DNA of 61,825 nt, taken from assembly GCA_938022935.1 (NCBI GenBank), contig CALIHL010000012.1:1-61825 (forward strand), given 5' to 3'. The stretch's first letter is position 1, and every line of letters starts with the position of its first letter. Under the pieces are notes generated by a model. The model was not told the DNA's origin and made no database searches. It worked only from the letters and a program-made list of their open reading frames with translations. This document shows, in pieces, positions 1,289 through 18,844 of the stretch. The translations under genes and the position numbers were made by a program. The stretch comes from an uncultured Saprospiraceae bacterium (GTDB lineage Bacteria; Bacteroidota; Bacteroidia; Chitinophagales; Saprospiraceae).

Positions 1289-1993
1289 ATGACCACCCAA
1301 TCCGAACAAATATTAGAGAATAGCCTCATCCAGCAACTGGGTAAACTCGGTTATGAATCTGTTGTAATAGCAGATGAAGCAGCATTATTATCTAATCTAA
1401 AAACTCAGCTAGAAAAACACAACCAGATAACCTTATCAGATCAAGAATTTGCAAAGGTGCTGAACCACCTTAATAAGGGTAACATCTTTGATAGGGCAAA
1501 GACGCTTAGAGATAAGTTTCAACTCACCAAGGATGATGGACAGAGTACCTACATCGAGTTCATCAATATGGATCATTGGTGTCAGAATCAATATCAAGTC
1601 ACTAACCAAGTCACCATAGAAGGAAGCTATAAGAATAGATATGATGTGACCTTACTGGTCAATGGACTTCCATTAGTACAGATAGAACTGAAGCGCAGAG
1701 GATTGGAGATGAAAGAAGCCTTCAATCAGATCAACCGCTATCAAAGGCACTCCTTCTGGTCAGCGTATGGACTATTCCAGTATGTACAACTCTTTGTCAT
1801 CAGCAATGGTGTTAATACTAAGTACTACGCGAACAATCGTAAGACTTCATATAAGCAGACCTTCTATTGGTCGGACAAGGACAACAACAGAGTCACACAA
1901 CTGAAGGACTTCGCTAATGAGTTCTTAGAAAAGTGTCACCTCTCCAAGATGATCACGAGGTACATCGTGCTTCATGAGACAGACAAATACTGA
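1289..1993 (+). CDS. hsdR: Type I restriction enzyme R subunit, N-terminal nuclease part (split hsdR)
   Basis: These 234 residues form the N-terminal nuclease domain of HsdR, the DNA-cleaving and translocating subunit of a type I restriction-modification complex. The PD-(D/E)xK site is visible as D119 (NRYDVTLLV) with E133 and K135 (QIELKRRG), followed by a QxxxY motif at 147-151. The frame ends in TGA at 1991-1993, inside the segment that in intact HsdR leads straight into 'LMVLRPYQ', and the next ORF starts on the overlapping ATG (TGATG). The two parts together equal one normal HsdR. Adding one base after 1990 would fuse them, so this is either an authentic frameshift, a sequencing error, or a real two-polypeptide enzyme. 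hsdM and hsdS are not in the window and probably lie to the left. Confidence 0.88.
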   Translation: MTTQSEQILENSLIQQLGKLGYESVVIADEAALLSNLKTQLEKHNQITLSDQEFAKVLNHLNKGNIFDRAKTLRDKFQLTKDDGQSTYIEFINMDHWCQNQYQVTNQVTIEGSYKNRYDVTLLVNGLPLVQIELKRRGLEMKEAFNQINRYQRHSFWSAYGLFQYVQLFVISNGVNTKYYANNRKTSYKQTFYWSDKDNNRVTQLKDFANEFLEKCHLSKMITRYIVLHETDKY

Positions 1994-4203
1994 TGGTGCT
2001 TCGCCCTTATCAATATTTTGCAGTAGAAGAGATAATAGAAAGAGTAAAGAACTCAACAAAGAATGGTTACATCTGGCATACGACTGGTTCTGGGAAAACA
2101 CTGACTTCTTTTAAGGCAAGTCAGATCATTATGAGACTTCCGACTGTAGATAAGGTCGTCTTCTGTGTAGATAGAAATGACCTCGACTATCAGACGATGA
2201 AGGAGTTCAATAACTTCAAGAAGGATTGTGTGGATGGTACTGATAATACGAAAGTGCTGGTCCAACAATTTACAGATAGCACACAGCTCATTGTTACAAC
2301 GATTCAAAAGCTGAACACTGCCATCAGTAAGCAAAAGTATCTTGCAAAGATGCAATCGCAGAAAGATCAAAAGATCGTTTTCATATTTGACGAATGCCAT
2401 AGAAGCCAATTTGGAGATACACATAATCGGATTACTAAGTTTTTTGCGAATCATCAGTTATTTGGTTTTACAGGAACACCCATATTCGCAGAGAATGCCT
2501 CAAAGAATGATTTAGGAAAAAGGACTACTAAGGATTTATTTGATTTATGTCTTCATAAATATGTCATCACCGATGCGATCAGAGATGAAAATGTCCTGAA
2601 GTTCTCAATCGAATATGTCGGAAAGTATCGCAACAAGGCAGAGAGCGAGAATGAGGTCGACATTGAAGTAGAAGCGATAGATACAAAAGAGCTTTTAGAA
2701 GCGCCTGACAGACTCAACAAGATCACTGACTATATCATCCATCACCATAAGCGCAAGACGCATTCTGGAGAGTTTACTGCGATGTTTTGTGTGAGTAGTG
2801 TTGATGTGTTGATTCGATATTATGAGCTGTTCAAGAAGAAGAAAGAAGAGGGAAAACATAATTATAAAGTGGCTACTATATTTAGTTATACAGCCAATGA
2901 AGAAGACCAAGATGCTGATGGATATATAGAAGATGCCTTTGCTCAGACTGATGGTAAGGACACAAAAGAACATAAGCATACAAGAGACAAGCTGGATGAA
3001 TTTATAACCGATTATAATGACATGTTCCAGACTAAGTATAGCACCAAGGACAGCAAGTCATTTTATAATTACTACAAGGACATAGCTAATCGCGTCAAGA
3101 AGAAGCAAGTAGACATTTTGCTTGTAGTCAATATGTTTTTAACTGGTTTTGATAGTAAGCCACTTAATACTTTGTACGTGGATAAGAATCTGCGCTACCA
3201 TGGTTTGATCCAAGCCTACAGTCGCACCAATCGTATACTCAACGAGTTGAAGTCACAAGGGAATATCTTGTCTTTTAGAAATCTGAAGAAGCGGACAGAT
3301 GAAGCAATCATTCTATTTTCAAATAAGGATGCCATTGAAGAAATCATCATACCACCTTATGAAGAACAAGTAGATAGATTCGATAATGCATTCACAGTGT
3401 TACTAAAGATTGCCCCTACTTATCAAAGTGTTGATAAATTAAAAGATGAAAATGAAGAATTGGCTTTTGTGCAGCAATTCAGAGAAGTGATGCGCACGCT
3501 CAATGTGCTCCAATCCTTTGCTGACTTTTCTTGGGATAATGTCGAGATGGATGCGCAACAATTTGAAAATTATAAAAGCAAATATCTCGATCTATATGAT
3601 AAGGTAAAAACCGACAATCAAAAGGAAGTTGTCTCAGTATTGGATGAGGTAGACTTCGAGTTAGAGTTGATACATCGTGATGAAATCAACGTGACATATA
3701 TACTTGGACTTCTTGCTGACTTGCATGATACAGCTCCTAAAGACAAAGCCAAGAAGCAACAACAGATTGTTGAAATGCTTACTGGTCAGGCACAACTCAG
3801 AAGCAAGAAAGAACTCATCGAGAAATTCATCAAAGACAACCTCCCACAGATAGAGGACAGCAGGAATATCCCTGATGAATTCGATGGTTTTTGGAATGGA
3901 GAAAAGAAAAAAGCCTTTGAATCTATGTGTGAAGAAGAAGGTCTACAGCCAGATAAACTAGATAAGATTATTAATAACTATTTGTTCTCTGGAAGAAAAC
4001 CTTTGAGGGATAAGATAATCGGGAGCCTTAAATCCAAGCCTAGTGTACTAAAACGTAAATCAATCGGAGAAAGAGTCCTTCAGAAGATGTTAAGTTTTGT
4101 AGAGACTTATATTACCGATGTACCAGCAAGCAACGCGAAGATTTACCAATTGTCAAGTCTGCCGTTGGATATGGCGGCTGATGAGACTGAAGGATATAAT
4201 TAA
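1993..4203 (+). CDS. hsdR: Type I restriction enzyme R subunit, motor and C-terminal part (split hsdR)
   Basis: These 736 residues hold the superfamily 2 helicase-like translocase and C-terminal helical domain of HsdR. Walker A is HTTGSGKT (29-36), the DEAD-box variant is DECH (133-136), motif III is TGTP (160-163), and motifs V/VI are seen around LTGFDSKPL and YSRTNRI. The protein begins MVLRPYQYFA, which in intact HsdR lies directly after the nuclease domain, so the gene is cut exactly at the domain border. The ATG overlaps the upstream TGA by one base, which would allow termination-reinitiation. All motor motifs look intact, so the split may be recent or tolerated. Confidence 0.9.
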   Translation: MVLRPYQYFAVEEIIERVKNSTKNGYIWHTTGSGKTLTSFKASQIIMRLPTVDKVVFCVDRNDLDYQTMKEFNNFKKDCVDGTDNTKVLVQQFTDSTQLIVTTIQKLNTAISKQKYLAKMQSQKDQKIVFIFDECHRSQFGDTHNRITKFFANHQLFGFTGTPIFAENASKNDLGKRTTKDLFDLCLHKYVITDAIRDENVLKFSIEYVGKYRNKAESENEVDIEVEAIDTKELLEAPDRLNKITDYIIHHHKRKTHSGEFTAMFCVSSVDVLIRYYELFKKKKEEGKHNYKVATIFSYTANEEDQDADGYIEDAFAQTDGKDTKEHKHTRDKLDEFITDYNDMFQTKYSTKDSKSFYNYYKDIANRVKKKQVDILLVVNMFLTGFDSKPLNTLYVDKNLRYHGLIQAYSRTNRILNELKSQGNILSFRNLKKRTDEAIILFSNKDAIEEIIIPPYEEQVDRFDNAFTVLLKIAPTYQSVDKLKDENEELAFVQQFREVMRTLNVLQSFADFSWDNVEMDAQQFENYKSKYLDLYDKVKTDNQKEVVSVLDEVDFELELIHRDEINVTYILGLLADLHDTAPKDKAKKQQQIVEMLTGQAQLRSKKELIEKFIKDNLPQIEDSRNIPDEFDGFWNGEKKKAFESMCEEEGLQPDKLDKIINNYLFSGRKPLRDKIIGSLKSKPSVLKRKSIGERVLQKMLSFVETYITDVPASNAKIYQLSSLPLDMAADETEGYN

Positions 4204-4208
4204 TATTT

Positions 4209-4802
4209 ATGCTATCTACCACAGAGTTATTTGTTGAACATATTATCTCAGGCATTCTTTCATTAATTTGGATTGGTGCGATTGTATTTTGTTTCACTGG
4301 TGTTGATACTTCTTTCATGCCTTTGATAAAAGACTTATGGGGGCTATTGGCTGTGGTTGCCACGGCTATAGCTTACCCTGTTGGAATATTTGTGGATACG
4401 GCAGCTGATAAGATCTTAGAGAATTGGAATGGAAAGATAAAAAAGTAAGCTTTTAAAGACAGCGAACATTACAATAATGTAAGCCTCTTGCATATAATTC
4501 AAGTCCTAAAAAATGATAACATCACGAACTACTTCACTTATAATAGATTCAAAACAAGAGTATCTCGGTCGTCAGCTTTGAATTTTCTATTTATCGGAAT
4601 TGCGGCTCCTGTATTTATAATGAATCAAGGAGCTGATATGGGTTTAGAGTTTCCAGGTAAACTCGCACTCACACTAAGTATCACCTTCCTATTGCTCTCA
4701 ATAGTTGCGTTTCTCTTATGGAGGGAGATCGCTAAGACTGTTTATAGACGGATAAAGCAGGTGATTGACGATAACCCTGATGTGCTGTCAAGTGCAGCCT
4801 AA
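4209..4802 (+). pseudogene. Small polytopic membrane protein interrupted by an in-frame stop
   Basis: An ATG frame of 79 codons (4209-4448) ends in TAA at 4446-4448. The same frame then stays open to 4802, and the residues directly after the stop (AFKDSEHYNNVSLLHIIQ) read like ordinary protein. Joined, they give a 197-residue protein with two hydrophobic segments before the stop (about residues 12-30 and 45-62) and two after it (about 120-138 and 148-168). I infer one gene with a nonsense mutation. Alternatives are two separate small genes, the second starting at TTG 4488, or stop readthrough. The function is not recognised. The gene starts 5 bases after hsdR, so it probably belongs to the restriction operon. 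Confidence 0.6.
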
Positions 4803-4825
4803 GGGTTTAAAAAGGGCAAGGTAGA

Positions 4826-5095
4826 TTATTGGGTAATCAAATCGATCAGACTTAAGCCTTCTTTCTCTATGTCCCTCCTCCATTTCTCATATAGCCTCTT
4901 GATTCTTTTTTCTGAAAAAGTTGAGCCGAGTTTTACTTCTTTTTCCAATAATTCGTTTTGGTAATATTTTATTAGTTTTTTATGATCAGTACCAAGAAGG
5001 GTAATTCCCAAACGGTACGTCCCAATATCTTTATCTAAGAGCATTGATACCAATTCTCGAGGCAGATAGCTTAAGTGATTATAGGGGAAATTCAT
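4826..5095 (-). CDS. Hypothetical small protein downstream of the PhoD-like gene
   Basis: This is an 89-residue, charged, mostly helical protein (MNFPYNHLSYLPRELVSMLL...) with no signal peptide or membrane segment. Its ATG lies 10 bases after the stop of the phosphatase gene, on the same strand, which suggests co-transcription. I recognise no family. The C-terminal part (FSEKRIKRLYEKWRRDIEKEG) could form an amphipathic helix. The coding call rests on spacing and reasonable composition only. Confidence 0.55.
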   Translation of the reverse strand: MNFPYNHLSYLPRELVSMLLDKDIGTYRLGITLLGTDHKKLIKYYQNELLEKEVKLGSTFSEKRIKRLYEKWRRDIEKEGLSLIDLITQ

Positions 5096-5105
5096 TTTTA
5101 ATTAT

Positions 5106-7772
5106 TCAACTTTTAACCTTCAAACTCTCCATACTCTCCACCAACCTCATCTCCCTAATTCTTCTAATTGTATAAGTTCGATCCAGATCAAAAACCATCG
5201 GTTTAAACTGTCCTGCAGGTGGTCGATAAGCATAGATGATCTCATTAGTCTCTTGATCAACTAAGTGAATTACATCTTGCCCATCCACACTGATTGCTTC
5301 AAGATGACCCACAACCTTACGCCCATAATTTTCTAATTGATTGATCTTCATGGGCCAGTCAGGATAGGGCGTGTTATCTGGTGCGGCTTGACTTGGTCCA
5401 GCCCATCTTGGCCAAACTGCGATGTCTATGTCTCGTGATGTTTTCTCAAATGATATGATAGAATATCCCGGGGCTTTATCAAAAACCATAGATGGCTCGC
5501 GATCTATATCATGTGGATTGGCGATACCTTTCACAGTTATTTTATTGCCAAATCCATCCTCGTAATTGCCGGTATATTTTCTAATATCGTTGGATGCCTT
5601 ACCACCTTCGCTTTCTACTGCCGGAAACCATCGCCTTGGCCAAAGATTAGCAACTGCTGGACTTGAGACCCAATATCCGCCATCACCGTATTCGTCAACC
5701 CCATATTGTCCGGTAGATCCAAGATGTTGATCGCCTGTGAGATGAAGTGCAAATGCTTTTCTAATCGTCTTGATGGCTTTGTCTCTTTTGTTTTGTGGCC
5801 AACCATTAGAATCAAAGTCAGCGACGGGTCGATCATCGGTCGGGTATTCATCAACTTTGTATTTCTTCAGACCAGGTACGTATTTGTCATGCCAGATGTG
5901 AGCGGGTAGGGTAGCGACATTGCAAAAAGGAGTTTGTGATATCACGGCTTTGAATTGTGTGTCATCACTCCAGTCAGCTATCCATTCTTCTAAGAATGCT
6001 TCTTGCCTCGGCCCGAGAAGCTCAGCATCAGGATGGAAAGCATCTGTCTTGGGATCCCAAGATTTGTTTTGCGGCCATCCGTTTTCTATTTCAGCGTCTG
6101 GGAAGAATTGTTTGGGAGCAGTCTTCCATTGGCGATCACCAAGAATGGCAAAGCTTACTCCGCCGTACTTCAAGTGACTATAGTAAACTGTGATGTCTTG
6201 TAAGATTGGTGTTGGATCATCTGGGTCAGGCAGATGTCCCGTTTGTGTGCGATGTACCATGTTGACAAATTCTCCTGACTCCTTATAACCGCCGCTGTCT
6301 TGGCCGAAGTATCCATAGCCTTTAGACACATCAGCGGCTTTGCCTCCTTCGCCCCACAGATTGCCATGAAACACATCGTGATCATCAGGTATGATAACAG
6401 TTGGTGTGCTTCTCATCAGATCTCTGAATGACCAACCGAAGATGTACCACTTGCGCTGATAGTCTAAGAGGCTATTGCGTTCTACACCATATCCAGCGAC
6501 TCGTTCGTATAACTGATCTCCATGAAACGCTATGAAGTCTGGCGTGTGAGCAGCAACATTATCAACAAGATCTTGATGAGGGAATCCTCTGTCATCGACA
6601 CAAGAGAGCGAAGCCATTTTGAGTTTGCTGGTTTTAGGATCCTTTTTGATGATACCTTTGTAAAAGTGATTTGCGCCAGCCTTATCAGTATAGCTGATTT
6701 TATAATTGTGATCTGTGGTGTCATCCCAATCTGATATTCTAAATAGCGCGTTTCTACCTTCTTGATCAATATCTGAAGTCTGTACTTCTTTACCATCTAT
6801 GATCAGCGTGGCTGTTCTTGTATTGTTTCCTATGGGTGCAAACTGAGTACTCATCTTCATGATATTGTCAGATAGGGTATGCTGCGTCCATAGGATCGGA
6901 CCATAAGATCGCTCACCATGATTTGAGATTTTAGCACCTGATACTTTCCAATTAGAGAAAGCATAATTGGTTTCGCCGCCAACTCTTTTGTTTAGATCTT
7001 TGAGATCAGTGTAAGCAGGTCTTTCTCTTTGATGATCGATGGTATCTGGTGTGCTTTGAGAACAAGTGATAGCCATTAATCCAGCAAGCCATGATTGATG
7101 AACGGTTGATGTCATTGAGAGGCCTTCTTGTTCATTGCCCTGATTGTATGATACTGTAAGATCATATAAGTCAGAGTCGTTTTTGGGTACGGCGCTAATG
7201 GCAAGTGATCCTTCATTCACTTTTTTGATGTCGGTTTCTTGAACATTGTCAAGGCTTCCGATGAATAAGGTGCCAGCTATAGTGATCCCAACGCTAAGCC
7301 CTCTACCCTTGATAACATCGTCGCGATAATCATCAAACTGCCCTTTTAACCCAAGTTGAAATCCTACCCAGCCTATTGGGTTAAGCCCTTTGGGTAATGC
7401 ATCAGGTATAGCCTCTGAAGTCGGTTTCTGTGATTTTTTATTTACCGTGTTGAGTCTTTCGATATCTACAGAGATCTCAAAGCTTCCCAAGTCGTCATTG
7501 ATACTTCTTGTTAACAGCACAACATTCCTATCTCCTCCGGAGATTTCACATTTCAGTTTGCCATCCGCTTGCTTCCAAGCTTGAAGAGGGTTGAGCCAAT
7601 AATCTTCTCCAGCCCAATGTCGATCTATCGATGTGTCGGACCAATCTGACTGAAAGTTGGCATTAGGTTCTGTGTCGCAGCTATTGAAGAATAATGCAGT
7701 CAGAATTATAAGAATGAAGAAAAAATATTTCACGTAAGTATAATTATGAGGAGAAGATACAGAGAAGTTCAT
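5106..7772 (-). CDS. PhoD-like phosphatase/phosphodiesterase, predicted lipoprotein
   Basis: This is an 888-residue member of the alkaline phosphatase D-like metallophosphatase group. Metal-site motifs appear in order: SCVDD (390-394), HGDQLY (417-422), DDHDVFHG (463-470), GDRQW (545-549) and LTGDQHLG (678-685). Before the catalytic part are about 350 residues of beta-rich sequence, probably a sugar-binding-like or Fn-like module. The N-terminus is hydrophobic and ends in FFNSC, with Cys32 as the likely lipidation site, so the protein should sit on the outer membrane or periplasmic face. A GTG at residue 14 (base 7733) would give a more typical signal peptide length than the ATG used here. 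The substrate is unknown; phosphate esters or lipoteichoic-acid-like polymers are typical for the family. Confidence 0.85.
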   Translation of the reverse strand: MNFSVSSPHNYTYVKYFFFILIILTALFFNSCDTEPNANFQSDWSDTSIDRHWAGEDYWLNPLQAWKQADGKLKCEISGGDRNVVLLTRSINDDLGSFEISVDIERLNTVNKKSQKPTSEAIPDALPKGLNPIGWVGFQLGLKGQFDDYRDDVIKGRGLSVGITIAGTLFIGSLDNVQETDIKKVNEGSLAISAVPKNDSDLYDLTVSYNQGNEQEGLSMTSTVHQSWLAGLMAITCSQSTPDTIDHQRERPAYTDLKDLNKRVGGETNYAFSNWKVSGAKISNHGERSYGPILWTQHTLSDNIMKMSTQFAPIGNNTRTATLIIDGKEVQTSDIDQEGRNALFRISDWDDTTDHNYKISYTDKAGANHFYKGIIKKDPKTSKLKMASLSCVDDRGFPHQDLVDNVAAHTPDFIAFHGDQLYERVAGYGVERNSLLDYQRKWYIFGWSFRDLMRSTPTVIIPDDHDVFHGNLWGEGGKAADVSKGYGYFGQDSGGYKESGEFVNMVHRTQTGHLPDPDDPTPILQDITVYYSHLKYGGVSFAILGDRQWKTAPKQFFPDAEIENGWPQNKSWDPKTDAFHPDAELLGPRQEAFLEEWIADWSDDTQFKAVISQTPFCNVATLPAHIWHDKYVPGLKKYKVDEYPTDDRPVADFDSNGWPQNKRDKAIKTIRKAFALHLTGDQHLGSTGQYGVDEYGDGGYWVSSPAVANLWPRRWFPAVESEGGKASNDIRKYTGNYEDGFGNKITVKGIANPHDIDREPSMVFDKAPGYSIISFEKTSRDIDIAVWPRWAGPSQAAPDNTPYPDWPMKINQLENYGRKVVGHLEAISVDGQDVIHLVDQETNEIIYAYRPPAGQFKPMVFDLDRTYTIRRIREMRLVESMESLKVKS

Positions 7773-7814
7773 AAGTAGGATAAAACGCGCTAATATCCAT
7801 TACCTTTGGATACA

Positions 7815-8303
7815 ATGAAAACGATAAAAGATCTCAAAGCTTCATTACCCCAAGTAGGGAGGATAGAGTGGATTGGTATTCGGTCAAAAAGAAGAGCAGA
7901 GGTCATCTCAGTTGAACGTGTATCTATATCAGAAGAAGAAGGTATAGAAGGAGATCATTATAGCAAGCAAGGTGGGAAACGCATGGTTACTTTGATCCAG
8001 AAAGAGCATCTTGACGTTGTTTCAACCTTGTTGCGAAAAGAGGTAAGCCCAGGTCAGATTAGACGAAACATAGTTGTCTCAGGTATCAATCTTTTAGCAC
8101 TTCATGATGAGACATTTTCGCTAGGTGAAGAAGTGGTTTTGAAAGGCACTGGGTACTGCCATCCATGTAGTCGGATGGAAGAAAATCTTGGCGCGGGAGG
8201 TTACAATGCCATGAGAGGTCATGGGGGAATAACTGCGGTTGTTGTCGATGGAGGCGAAATAAGTGTTGGCAACCAAGCGAAACTTCAAAACGAGATTGGG
8301 TAG
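7815..8303 (+). CDS. MOSC domain protein
   Basis: This 162-residue protein is a MOSC (molybdenum cofactor sulfurase C-terminal) domain standing alone. Such proteins bind a sulfur-carrying cofactor or the molybdenum cofactor through a conserved Cys. The signature is the YCHPCSRME segment, preceded by EGDHYSKQGGKRMVTL and followed by MRGHGGITAVV. I start at ATG 7815 and not at the in-frame TTG 7806. A TACCTTTG box at 7801-7808 resembles the Bacteroidota -7 element and would put transcription start close to that ATG. moaC and mobA follow on the same strand, so it belongs to a cofactor-synthesis group. Confidence 0.85.
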   Translation: MKTIKDLKASLPQVGRIEWIGIRSKRRAEVISVERVSISEEEGIEGDHYSKQGGKRMVTLIQKEHLDVVSTLLRKEVSPGQIRRNIVVSGINLLALHDETFSLGEEVVLKGTGYCHPCSRMEENLGAGGYNAMRGHGGITAVVVDGGEISVGNQAKLQNEIG

Positions 8304-8354
8304 ATGGTTTCGTTTATAAAAAATATACATATTTTTAATAATTGATATATCAAG

Positions 8355-8834
8355 ATGAGTAATTCTTTCTCACACTTAGATAAAAACGGCGACCCTTCGA
8401 TGGTCGATGTTGGAACAAAGGCTGTTACAAAAAGAGAGGCAACAGCTCGCTCCATTGTAACACTTCCTGCTGAGGTGGTTGATATCATTACAAAGGATGA
8501 GATCCATACCAAGAAAGGACCTGTTTTTCAGACGGCGATCTTGGCTGGGATCATGGGTGCGAAGAAGACAAGTGATCTTATACCCTTATGCCATCCACTA
8601 CCCATCAATAAGTGTGGGGTTGATATATCAATAAGTGAAAATAATCAGGTGTTAGTTACCTGTACAGTCAAAACTGAGGGTAAAACTGGTGTTGAAATGG
8701 AAGCGCTTACTGGCGCCTCTATAGCGGCTCTGACCATCTATGATATGTGCAAAGCTTTCTCTCATGACATCATCATAGAGTCGACTCAGCTCATTAGTAA
8801 GTCAGGAGGCAAAAGAGATTTTCAAAGATCGTGA
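8355..8834 (+). CDS. moaC: Cyclic pyranopterin monophosphate synthase MoaC
   Basis: These 159 residues match the full length of MoaC, which with MoaA turns GTP into cyclic pyranopterin monophosphate, the first step of molybdenum cofactor synthesis in the cytoplasm. The family signatures are present: MVDVGTKAVTKREATA near the start, LIPLCHPLP, and KTGVEMEALTGAS followed by ALTIYDMCKA. The gene ends one base before the ATG of mobA, so the two are almost certainly co-transcribed. moaA, moaD, moaE and moeA are not in the window. Confidence 0.96.
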   Translation: MSNSFSHLDKNGDPSMVDVGTKAVTKREATARSIVTLPAEVVDIITKDEIHTKKGPVFQTAILAGIMGAKKTSDLIPLCHPLPINKCGVDISISENNQVLVTCTVKTEGKTGVEMEALTGASIAALTIYDMCKAFSHDIIIESTQLISKSGGKRDFQRS

Positions 8835-16337: not shown

Positions 16338-16709
16338 ATGGCTACTATATCGAAGTTTGAGGATTTGGACTGCTGGAAATCGGCTCAATCATTGTTGATA
16401 AGTGTTTATGCCATTATGAAAAAGGACGAAGTCAGAAGAGAGTTTTCTTTTCAAGATCAGATAAAAAGGGCTGCTTTAAGTGTATCTTATAATATTGTTG
16501 AAGGATTTGAAAGGAAGTCTGCTAAGGAGAGAATTAGGTTTCTTGAGTTCGCTAGTGGCTCTATTTCTGAAGTAAAAAGTATGCTATACGCTGCTCTTAA
16601 GCTCGAATTCATAAATCAATCAGAATTTGATTCTACCTTTGCGCTTTGCGAAAAATGCCAAGGACAGGTAAAAGGTTTTATGAAGTATCTACACACGATC
16701 ATAAATTAG
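16338..16709 (+). CDS. Four-helix-bundle protein of the 23S rRNA intervening-sequence family
   Basis: This 123-residue protein belongs to the TIGR02436/S23 four-helix-bundle family, first seen encoded inside 23S rRNA intervening sequences and common as free genes in Bacteroidota. FEDLDCWKSAQ at the start, QIKRAALSVSYNIVEGFER in the middle and FLEFASGSISEVKSML are the hallmark segments. It forms pentamers in known structures; its job is unknown. It sits between proC and glyS with no rRNA nearby. Confidence 0.9.
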   Translation: MATISKFEDLDCWKSAQSLLISVYAIMKKDEVRREFSFQDQIKRAALSVSYNIVEGFERKSAKERIRFLEFASGSISEVKSMLYAALKLEFINQSEFDSTFALCEKCQGQVKGFMKYLHTIIN

Positions 16710-18406: not shown

Positions 18407-18844
18407 ATGCCAAAGTTGTATAAAGAAATCGACAAGAGTATCCTTAAGTCAATCCCTAATCCAACAAGGGAAGCTTATGAGATTAAGATAAAGATTCCAG
18501 AATTTACATTTTTGGGTGTGAGTGAGCAGCCAGATTTTGCCACTGTCTATCTTACGATGTATCCTTCTGACAAGATCATCGAGCTGAAGTCGCTCAAGTT
18601 ATATTCGTTTCATTTGCGAGACATCGTAGTCTCCTATGAGCGCTTGATCAACATCTTTTATGATCAACTAATGGAAGTTTACGATCCAGTTAGACTTCGT
18701 ATATCTATGGTTTGTAACCCACGTGGAGGGATCAGTTCAAAGTTGGCTATTGATTCTGACTGGGCCGTTAGAGGCGGTAAAGAAGAGTTCAAAGATTGGG
18801 TGGGGAGAAGCAGTGGAGATGACGATTGGAGTGTCTTGATGTAA
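18407..18844 (+). CDS. QueF-like T-fold protein lacking the catalytic Cys and His
   Basis: This 145-residue protein aligns with the unimodular QueF family (7-cyano-7-deazaguanine reductase): PEFTFL (31-36), QPDFATVYL (41-49), ELKSLKLYSF (59-68), YDPVRLRI (92-99) and NPRGGIS (104-110). In B. subtilis QueF the segment FTSLC-PKTGQPDF carries nucleophile Cys55, and FHE carries His96-Glu97. Here the Cys position is Gly37, one residue is missing before QPDF, and FHE is replaced by SYE (76-78). Asp43 and the substrate-holding ELKSLKLY are kept. Nitrile reduction through a thioimide therefore looks impossible. It may bind a deazapurine or pterin-like ligand, or do different chemistry. queE lies 10 kb away. 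Confidence 0.82.
   Translation: MPKLYKEIDKSILKSIPNPTREAYEIKIKIPEFTFLGVSEQPDFATVYLTMYPSDKIIELKSLKLYSFHLRDIVVSYERLINIFYDQLMEVYDPVRLRISMVCNPRGGISSKLAIDSDWAVRGGKEEFKDWVGRSSGDDDWSVLM

Follow-up and report, generated by a model that had tools for sequence, protein, structure and literature searches.

The gene at 18407–18844 (+) of the window, by which we mean the whole 61,825-nucleotide stretch of DNA analysed here, encodes a QueF-fold protein that has lost the nucleophilic cysteine of QueF, and its relatives strongly indicate a well-conserved T-fold family with a role in methionine and one-carbon metabolism. Family databases group these proteins with preQ1 synthase; we consider the protein to be probably a flavin-free, NAD(P)H-dependent methylene-tetrahydrofolate (methylene-THF) reductase that is built on the T-fold and replaces MetF. 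Support for this activity comes from genomic association, from which we infer a likely substrate, product, cofactor and mechanism.

The open reading frame starts with ATG and specifies 145 amino acids plus a stop codon, and its assignment rests on the frame itself, its Pfam match, 86 aligned family rows and a low ratio of nonsynonymous to synonymous substitutions. The window protein scored 60 bits against the Pfam QueF family PF14489 (cut-off 27.3) and is thus a match to that family, whereas its 83.4 bits against the NCBIfam model TIGR03139, "preQ(1) synthase", fell slightly below the cut-off of 86.9, so that it does not qualify as an equivalog; all 41 family members searched matched the same model at E < 1e-5. 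PDB chains of Bacillus subtilis QueF were matched with E-values from 1.5e-17 to 5.7e-17, and in a Pfam search that admitted E-values up to 1 the only families matched were QueF and QueF_N, with no match to PF02219 (MetF). The loop FTFLGVSEQPDF (residues 33–44, 18503–18538, +) has no cysteine and is one residue shorter than the FTSLCPxTGQPDF of QueF; in the alignments it carries Gly37 where QueF has Cys and retains Asp43, the equivalent of Asp62 in B. subtilis QueF. It is followed by the QueF motif ELKSLKLY (residues 59–66, 18581–18604, +), by SYE (residues 76–78, 18632–18640, +) at the position of FHE in B. subtilis, in which Glu78 corresponds to the substrate-anchoring Glu97, and by PRGGIS (residues 105–110, 18719–18736, +), which is common with QueF. 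Residues 116–141 (18752–18829, +) form a family-specific C-terminal part, DSDWxxRGGxExxxDW...W. By the markers of QueF membership, Asp62, Glu97 and the QueF motif with its Glu78 (QueF numbering) are represented by Asp43, Glu78 and ELKSLKLY with its Glu59, and the thioimide-forming Cys (Cys55 of B. subtilis) is absent.

A scan of a genome collection found 108 relatives, the best 80 loci of which were retained for analysis. Identities among these best 80 of 108 range from 68 to 98% across several phyla; most of the loci are from Bacteroidota, with others from Neomarinimicrobiota and from records titled Deltaproteobacteria or Syntrophorhabdus, although some titles of metagenome-assembled genomes (MAGs) may be wrong (L015, for example). 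We aligned 86 family rows (the window protein, the 80 loci and five sequences from further genomes) with nine Cys-bearing QueFs of the same phylum; two of the family rows (L004 and L009) come from one contig and a few others are near-identical. The column of the nucleophilic Cys was empty in all 86 family rows and filled in all nine ordinary QueFs, and every family row had Gly37 with the one-residue gap. Asp43, Glu59, Lys64, Tyr66, Arg71, Ser76, Tyr77, Arg79 and PRGGIS were likewise present in 86 of 86 rows, and Glu78 in 85, the remaining row having an unreadable residue at that position. The C-terminal pattern DSDWxxRGGxExxxDW occurred in nearly all family rows and in none of the nine QueFs. 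In Anaerophaga thermohalophila DSM 12881, the gene occurs on two contigs (L064 and L067) with no difference in its sequence or its neighbours, which reflects a duplication or an assembly artefact.

The first-pass annotation of this DNA had recognised the frame and its retained QueF motifs, the replacement of Cys by Gly with a one-residue deletion, the change from FHE to SYE, and the persistence of Asp43 and of the Glu of ELKS, and these observations are confirmed. The importance that it gave to the lost catalytic His was misplaced: the His of FHE is found in only one of the nine Cys-bearing QueFs, the other eight having FFE, FYE, YFE or FNE, so that its absence from the family is unremarkable. 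At the catalytic positions, the loss of Cys alone distinguishes the family from QueF.

Since the annotation had proposed to look for conservation of Gly and SYE in orthologues, we note that both are fixed, and that orthologues with the Cys, which would make this a lone mutation, are not found among the 86 family rows; a lone mutation is ruled out by the shared gap and Gly37. A sequence error at 18510–18525, also raised there, is excluded as well, because the gene of a same-genus relative has the same residues at the loop despite 43 base differences from the window gene, and all 86 rows agree. Those 43 differences result in three amino-acid changes (dN 0.009, dS 0.68, dN/dS about 0.013), and 61 columns are invariant across 41 family sequences, which together rule out a decaying copy and, at the level of sequence evolution, indicate strong constraint on the family. 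The missing nucleophile is what could suggest a dead QueF copy or a sequencing error; set against the identities among the best 80 of 108 loci in several phyla, the invariant columns and the low dN/dS, we regard such an explanation as having almost no chance of being correct.

Gene neighbourhoods, determined by clustering of flanking open reading frames and Pfam searches and counted over the best 80 of the 108 loci, connect the family with methionine synthesis; the counts are lower bounds, because gene calling missed even the family gene in four loci (L010, L011, L042 and L061) and so probably overlooked some neighbours too. In 30 of the 80, a B12-dependent methionine synthase (MetH) is split in two, and the gene is flanked by its homocysteine-methyltransferase part (PF02574) on one side and by its pterin-binding, B12-binding and activation part (PF00809, PF02607, PF02310, PF02965) on the other; at two further loci the second part adjoins the gene and the first does not. 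The pterin-binding, B12 and activation domains of MetH are intact beside the family gene. Seven loci have the gene between a metB-type PLP enzyme of Cys/Met metabolism (PF01053) and a homoserine-dehydrogenase-like gene (identified by eye), with no metH adjoining it, while it follows thyX (PF02511) at eight loci and a lone pterin-binding methyltransferase-type protein (PF00809) at two; the other 31, including the near-twin of the window (L009), have no telling neighbour. A SAM-I riboswitch was found upstream of the operon at each of the 18 MetH-type loci examined, out of 30, and at all seven metB-type loci, and at none of 11 loci outside these two operon types. The genome G354 also has a SAM-I riboswitch, followed by a metB-type gene, the family gene and a homoserine-dehydrogenase-like gene, and the Marinoscillum operon runs in the order homocysteine part, family gene, MetH and MetF. 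The gene context thus points away from queuosine. In two Neomarinimicrobiota loci (L057 and L063), the family gene comes after a lone PF00809 protein of 285 amino acids (L057:5104–5958, +), and neither genome has a match to MetF or to the MetH activation domain; this arrangement is perhaps a minimal split methionine synthase.

To relate the family to MetF, we checked 52 carrier genomes (46 hand-chosen from the 80 loci and six further genomes) for MetF, dihydrofolate reductase (DHFR), MetH and QueF. MetF (PF02219) was missing in 26 carriers, broken in one and intact in 25. In the family to which Crocinitomix algicola belongs, sampled with 200 genomes for which at least 80% completeness was asked, 11 of the 14 carriers had no MetF, compared with 16 of the 186 non-carriers (p about 1e-8); C. 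algicola itself, an isolate and a carrier, had no MetF that we could find. In the 60 genomes around that of the window, itself included, PF02219 was missing in five of five carriers versus nine of 55 non-carriers (p 4e-4), and within the genus of the window MetF is absent from both carriers and present in three non-carriers, while a further genome (85% complete) has neither gene. When non-carriers of like completeness (75–90%) are compared, the contrast is weak, at five of five versus two of six. Across the phylum sample, MetF occurs in 378 of 392 genomes and is missing in one of two carriers versus 13 of 390 others (p 0.07); since this association alone is not significant, we place weight on the order- and family-level samples. 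Many of these genomes are incomplete MAGs, and the genome counts do not represent independent events because the carriers are relatives of one another: the family tree requires at least eight changes of MetF state, only one of which is forced by strongly supported branches. The broken copy lies in the carrier G060 (L101, G060:C3:535500–539500), where a metF remnant at about 1457–2273 (-) is spread over three frames with many stops, has about 50% identity to an intact relative, and lies directly upstream of an oppositely oriented lepA-like gene.

The methionine synthase that would consume the product is generally present. Of the 27 carriers that have no intact MetF, 23 possess the MetH activation domain, compared with seven of 22 MetF-less non-carriers, and the genome of the window, rated 84% complete, contains a complete MetH of 1225 amino acids and DHFR, with no MetF match. 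Because six or seven MetF-less non-carriers have MetH, either MetF must be bypassed there in some other way or the assemblies must be incomplete. One such genome, G054, rated 100% complete, has a split metH beneath a SAM-I riboswitch (L107, G054:C1:4000–16000, 4553–8495, -), and neither a MetF match nor a family member was found in it. DHFR is present in 45 of the 52 carriers, the window's genome included, which rules out the family as a general DHFR substitute in most carriers, though not in three genomes with "delta" titles (G081, G083 and G089; loci L044, L049 and L062). In these three, the gene follows thyX, a MetF-like gene is retained, and no match to DHFR or to the MetH activation domain was found. 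The 25 carriers with an intact MetF, the 31 loci with no telling neighbour, the 11 loci lacking a riboswitch, the three "delta" genomes and G054 all count against a replacement of MetF by the family. For carriers that keep MetF, our guess is that the protein serves conditionally.

The predicted structure places the family among T-fold proteins. An AlphaFold2 model built on 41 family members (pLDDT 79.7, pTM 0.75, with the last 13 residues poorly predicted) has the two helices between strands 2 and 3 that are characteristic of a T-fold domain. Its top PDB match is B. subtilis QueF (4fgc_A, Z 14.8, rmsd 3.1, 130 aligned), followed by the archaeosine synthase QueF-Like (5jyx_G, Z 13.6, rmsd 1.9, 106 residues), and GTP cyclohydrolase I was also matched (9p8z_L, Z 13.5, rmsd 3.1, 128 aligned); a common fold by itself does not show function. 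With unimodular QueF, the NADPH-dependent preQ0 reductase (TIGR03139, PF14489; 4F8B, 4FGC), the family shares the T-fold at about 35% identity in the Foldseek alignment, together with the QueF motif, the Asp, the anchoring Glu and PRGGIS; it differs in having no nucleophilic Cys, a loop one residue shorter, a C-terminal part of its own, and a place in methionine operons with SAM riboswitches. The Crenarchaeota QueF-Like (5JYX, 5K0P) is likewise a T-fold QueF homologue with an altered reaction, but it keeps the Cys and the thioimide as described in PMC5485725, whereas the family has no Cys and is 11% identical to it. GTP cyclohydrolase I (FolE) and dihydroneopterin aldolase (FolB) have in common with the family the T-fold and a purine/pterin site (Z 13.5 and about 9), yet the identities in fold alignments are 8–18%, and these enzymes catalyse other reactions and are not reductases.

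Methylene-THF reduction requires a pterin site, an acid that forms the N5-iminium and a hydride donor. We propose that the family would use NAD(P)H, and no flavin, to convert 5,10-methylene-tetrahydrofolate to 5-methyl-tetrahydrofolate (the reaction of EC 1.5.1.20, PMC7857596), and would thereby supply methyl groups to B12-dependent methionine synthase in MetF's stead. QueF, whose chemistry rests on the covalent Cys (PMC5372742), is described as anchoring preQ0 by Glu97, using the Asp as general acid/base and binding NADPH via the QueF motif (PMC5372742, PMC5485725). The active sites of QueF are located between subunits. By analogy, Glu78 would anchor the pterin ring as Glu97 anchors preQ0, Asp43, the general acid of QueF, might help to protonate N10 and so open the methylene bridge to the N5-iminium, and NAD(P)H, bound through the QueF motif, would pass its hydride straight to this iminium. 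Because a covalent thioimide would not be needed under this proposal, the nucleophilic Cys could be lost, opening its place for a larger substrate.

Flavin-free reduction of methylene-THF has a precedent in the mycobacterial enzyme Mfr (PMC11094777), in which NAD(P)H passes hydride directly to an N5-iminium formed by an acid, and we liken our proposed mechanism to this; Mfr is a TIM barrel, and the account in PMC11094777 places it in mycobacteria only. The proposed likeness to MetF (MTHFR, PF02219) consists of the same reaction at the same place in methionine metabolism, whereas MetF is a TIM barrel with FAD (PMC11094777) and has no sequence relation to the family. The same source compares three methylene-tetrahydropterin reductases, MTHFR, Mfr and Mer, all of them TIM barrels, and for Price et al. 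the methylene-THF reductases to look for are those of PF02219 and of the Mfr family (PMC7857596). In the CC0, CC BY and CC BY-SA literature, excluding preprints, we found no paper that connects MetF, MetH or methylene-THF with any homologue of QueF by title or start of abstract, and none pairing QueF, MetF and methylenetetrahydrofolate reductase in full text; the family is not recognised in the literature and database sources that we searched. On balance we favour the view that the family reduces methylene-THF in yet another way, unrelated in structure to the others: the nitrile reductase QueF would have given up its covalent catalyst and become a flavin-free T-fold enzyme, which took the place of MetF in some lineages of Bacteroidota and Neomarinimicrobiota. 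If so, a T-fold reductase would bring a new fold to a central one-carbon reaction, nucleophile loss would provide a route from a covalent nitrile reductase to an iminium reductase, an apparent gap in methionine synthesis would be filled in many environmental bacteria, and caution would be due in annotating such genes as preQ1 synthase.

Of the functions suggested by the first-pass annotation, a new T-fold activity in pterin metabolism, here that of folate one-carbon units, is the part that our results support best, while no support emerged for a deazapurine or a regulatory role. If the protein did act in queuosine synthesis as a QueF variant that works without Cys, or bound preQ0 or preQ1 as a regulator, this would agree with QueF being nearest by both sequence and fold and with the 42 of 52 carriers that have no other PF14489 protein above the cut-off. 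The annotation had also asked about a second, normal QueF, and none was found in the window's genome (84% complete), where the only other PF14489 match is below the cut-off and falls in a 198-aa frame that resembles GTP cyclohydrolase I by eye. Ten of the 52 carriers do have a second PF14489 protein above the cut-off besides the family member, nine of them in open frames of 292–353 amino acids and one (G090) in a frame of 144, and this coexistence with seemingly ordinary QueFs favours a separate function of the family. The covalent Cys is missing in all 86 rows, and the surroundings are SAM-I riboswitches and methionine genes, unlike Bacillus methanolicus queF, which is described as lying behind a preQ1 riboswitch (PMC4342826). 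Judged on Cys and context, a queuosine enzyme is unlikely, and we give a deazapurine role of either kind very little credence.

Closer to our preferred reading, the protein might be an accessory of methionine synthase, which binds or delivers methyl-THF or helps to reactivate MetH, or a different folate or pterin enzyme acting at another C1-folate step, with 5-methyl-THF coming from another enzyme. The position inside split metH operons, persistence beside MetF in 25 of 52 carriers, the thyX neighbourhood of the "delta" group and the presence of GTP cyclohydrolase I among the nearest folds would all suit such a function. An accessory would replace no MetH domain, however, given that the pterin-binding, B12 and activation domains of MetH are intact alongside it; nor does an accessory role predict the excess of MetF loss or the seven metB-type/homoserine-dehydrogenase-like operons without adjoining metH, and we consider this reading rather unlikely. 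The protein could also use NAD(P)H to reduce some other compound of purine or pterin type that is connected with methionine supply, and might in some lineages be, for example, a reductase of the dihydrofolate type. Such a role would be compatible with the retained QueF motif and with the three thyX-linked "delta" genomes without a DHFR match, but DHFR in 45 of 52 carriers, including the window's genome, and the SAM riboswitch and metH context make it improbable.

The window's own neighbouring genes yielded no functional clue: prfC-, proC- and glycyl-tRNA-synthetase-like genes precede the family gene and a gene for a DUF819 protein follows on the other strand (several of these were named by eye). 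No riboswitch was matched in the window at the Rfam gathering thresholds, and a promoter and terminator scan around the gene was uninformative. Between the proC-like and glycyl-tRNA-synthetase-like genes lies a frame of 123 amino acids (16338–16709, +), which we take to resemble the four-helix-bundle proteins of the 23S rRNA intervening-sequence type.
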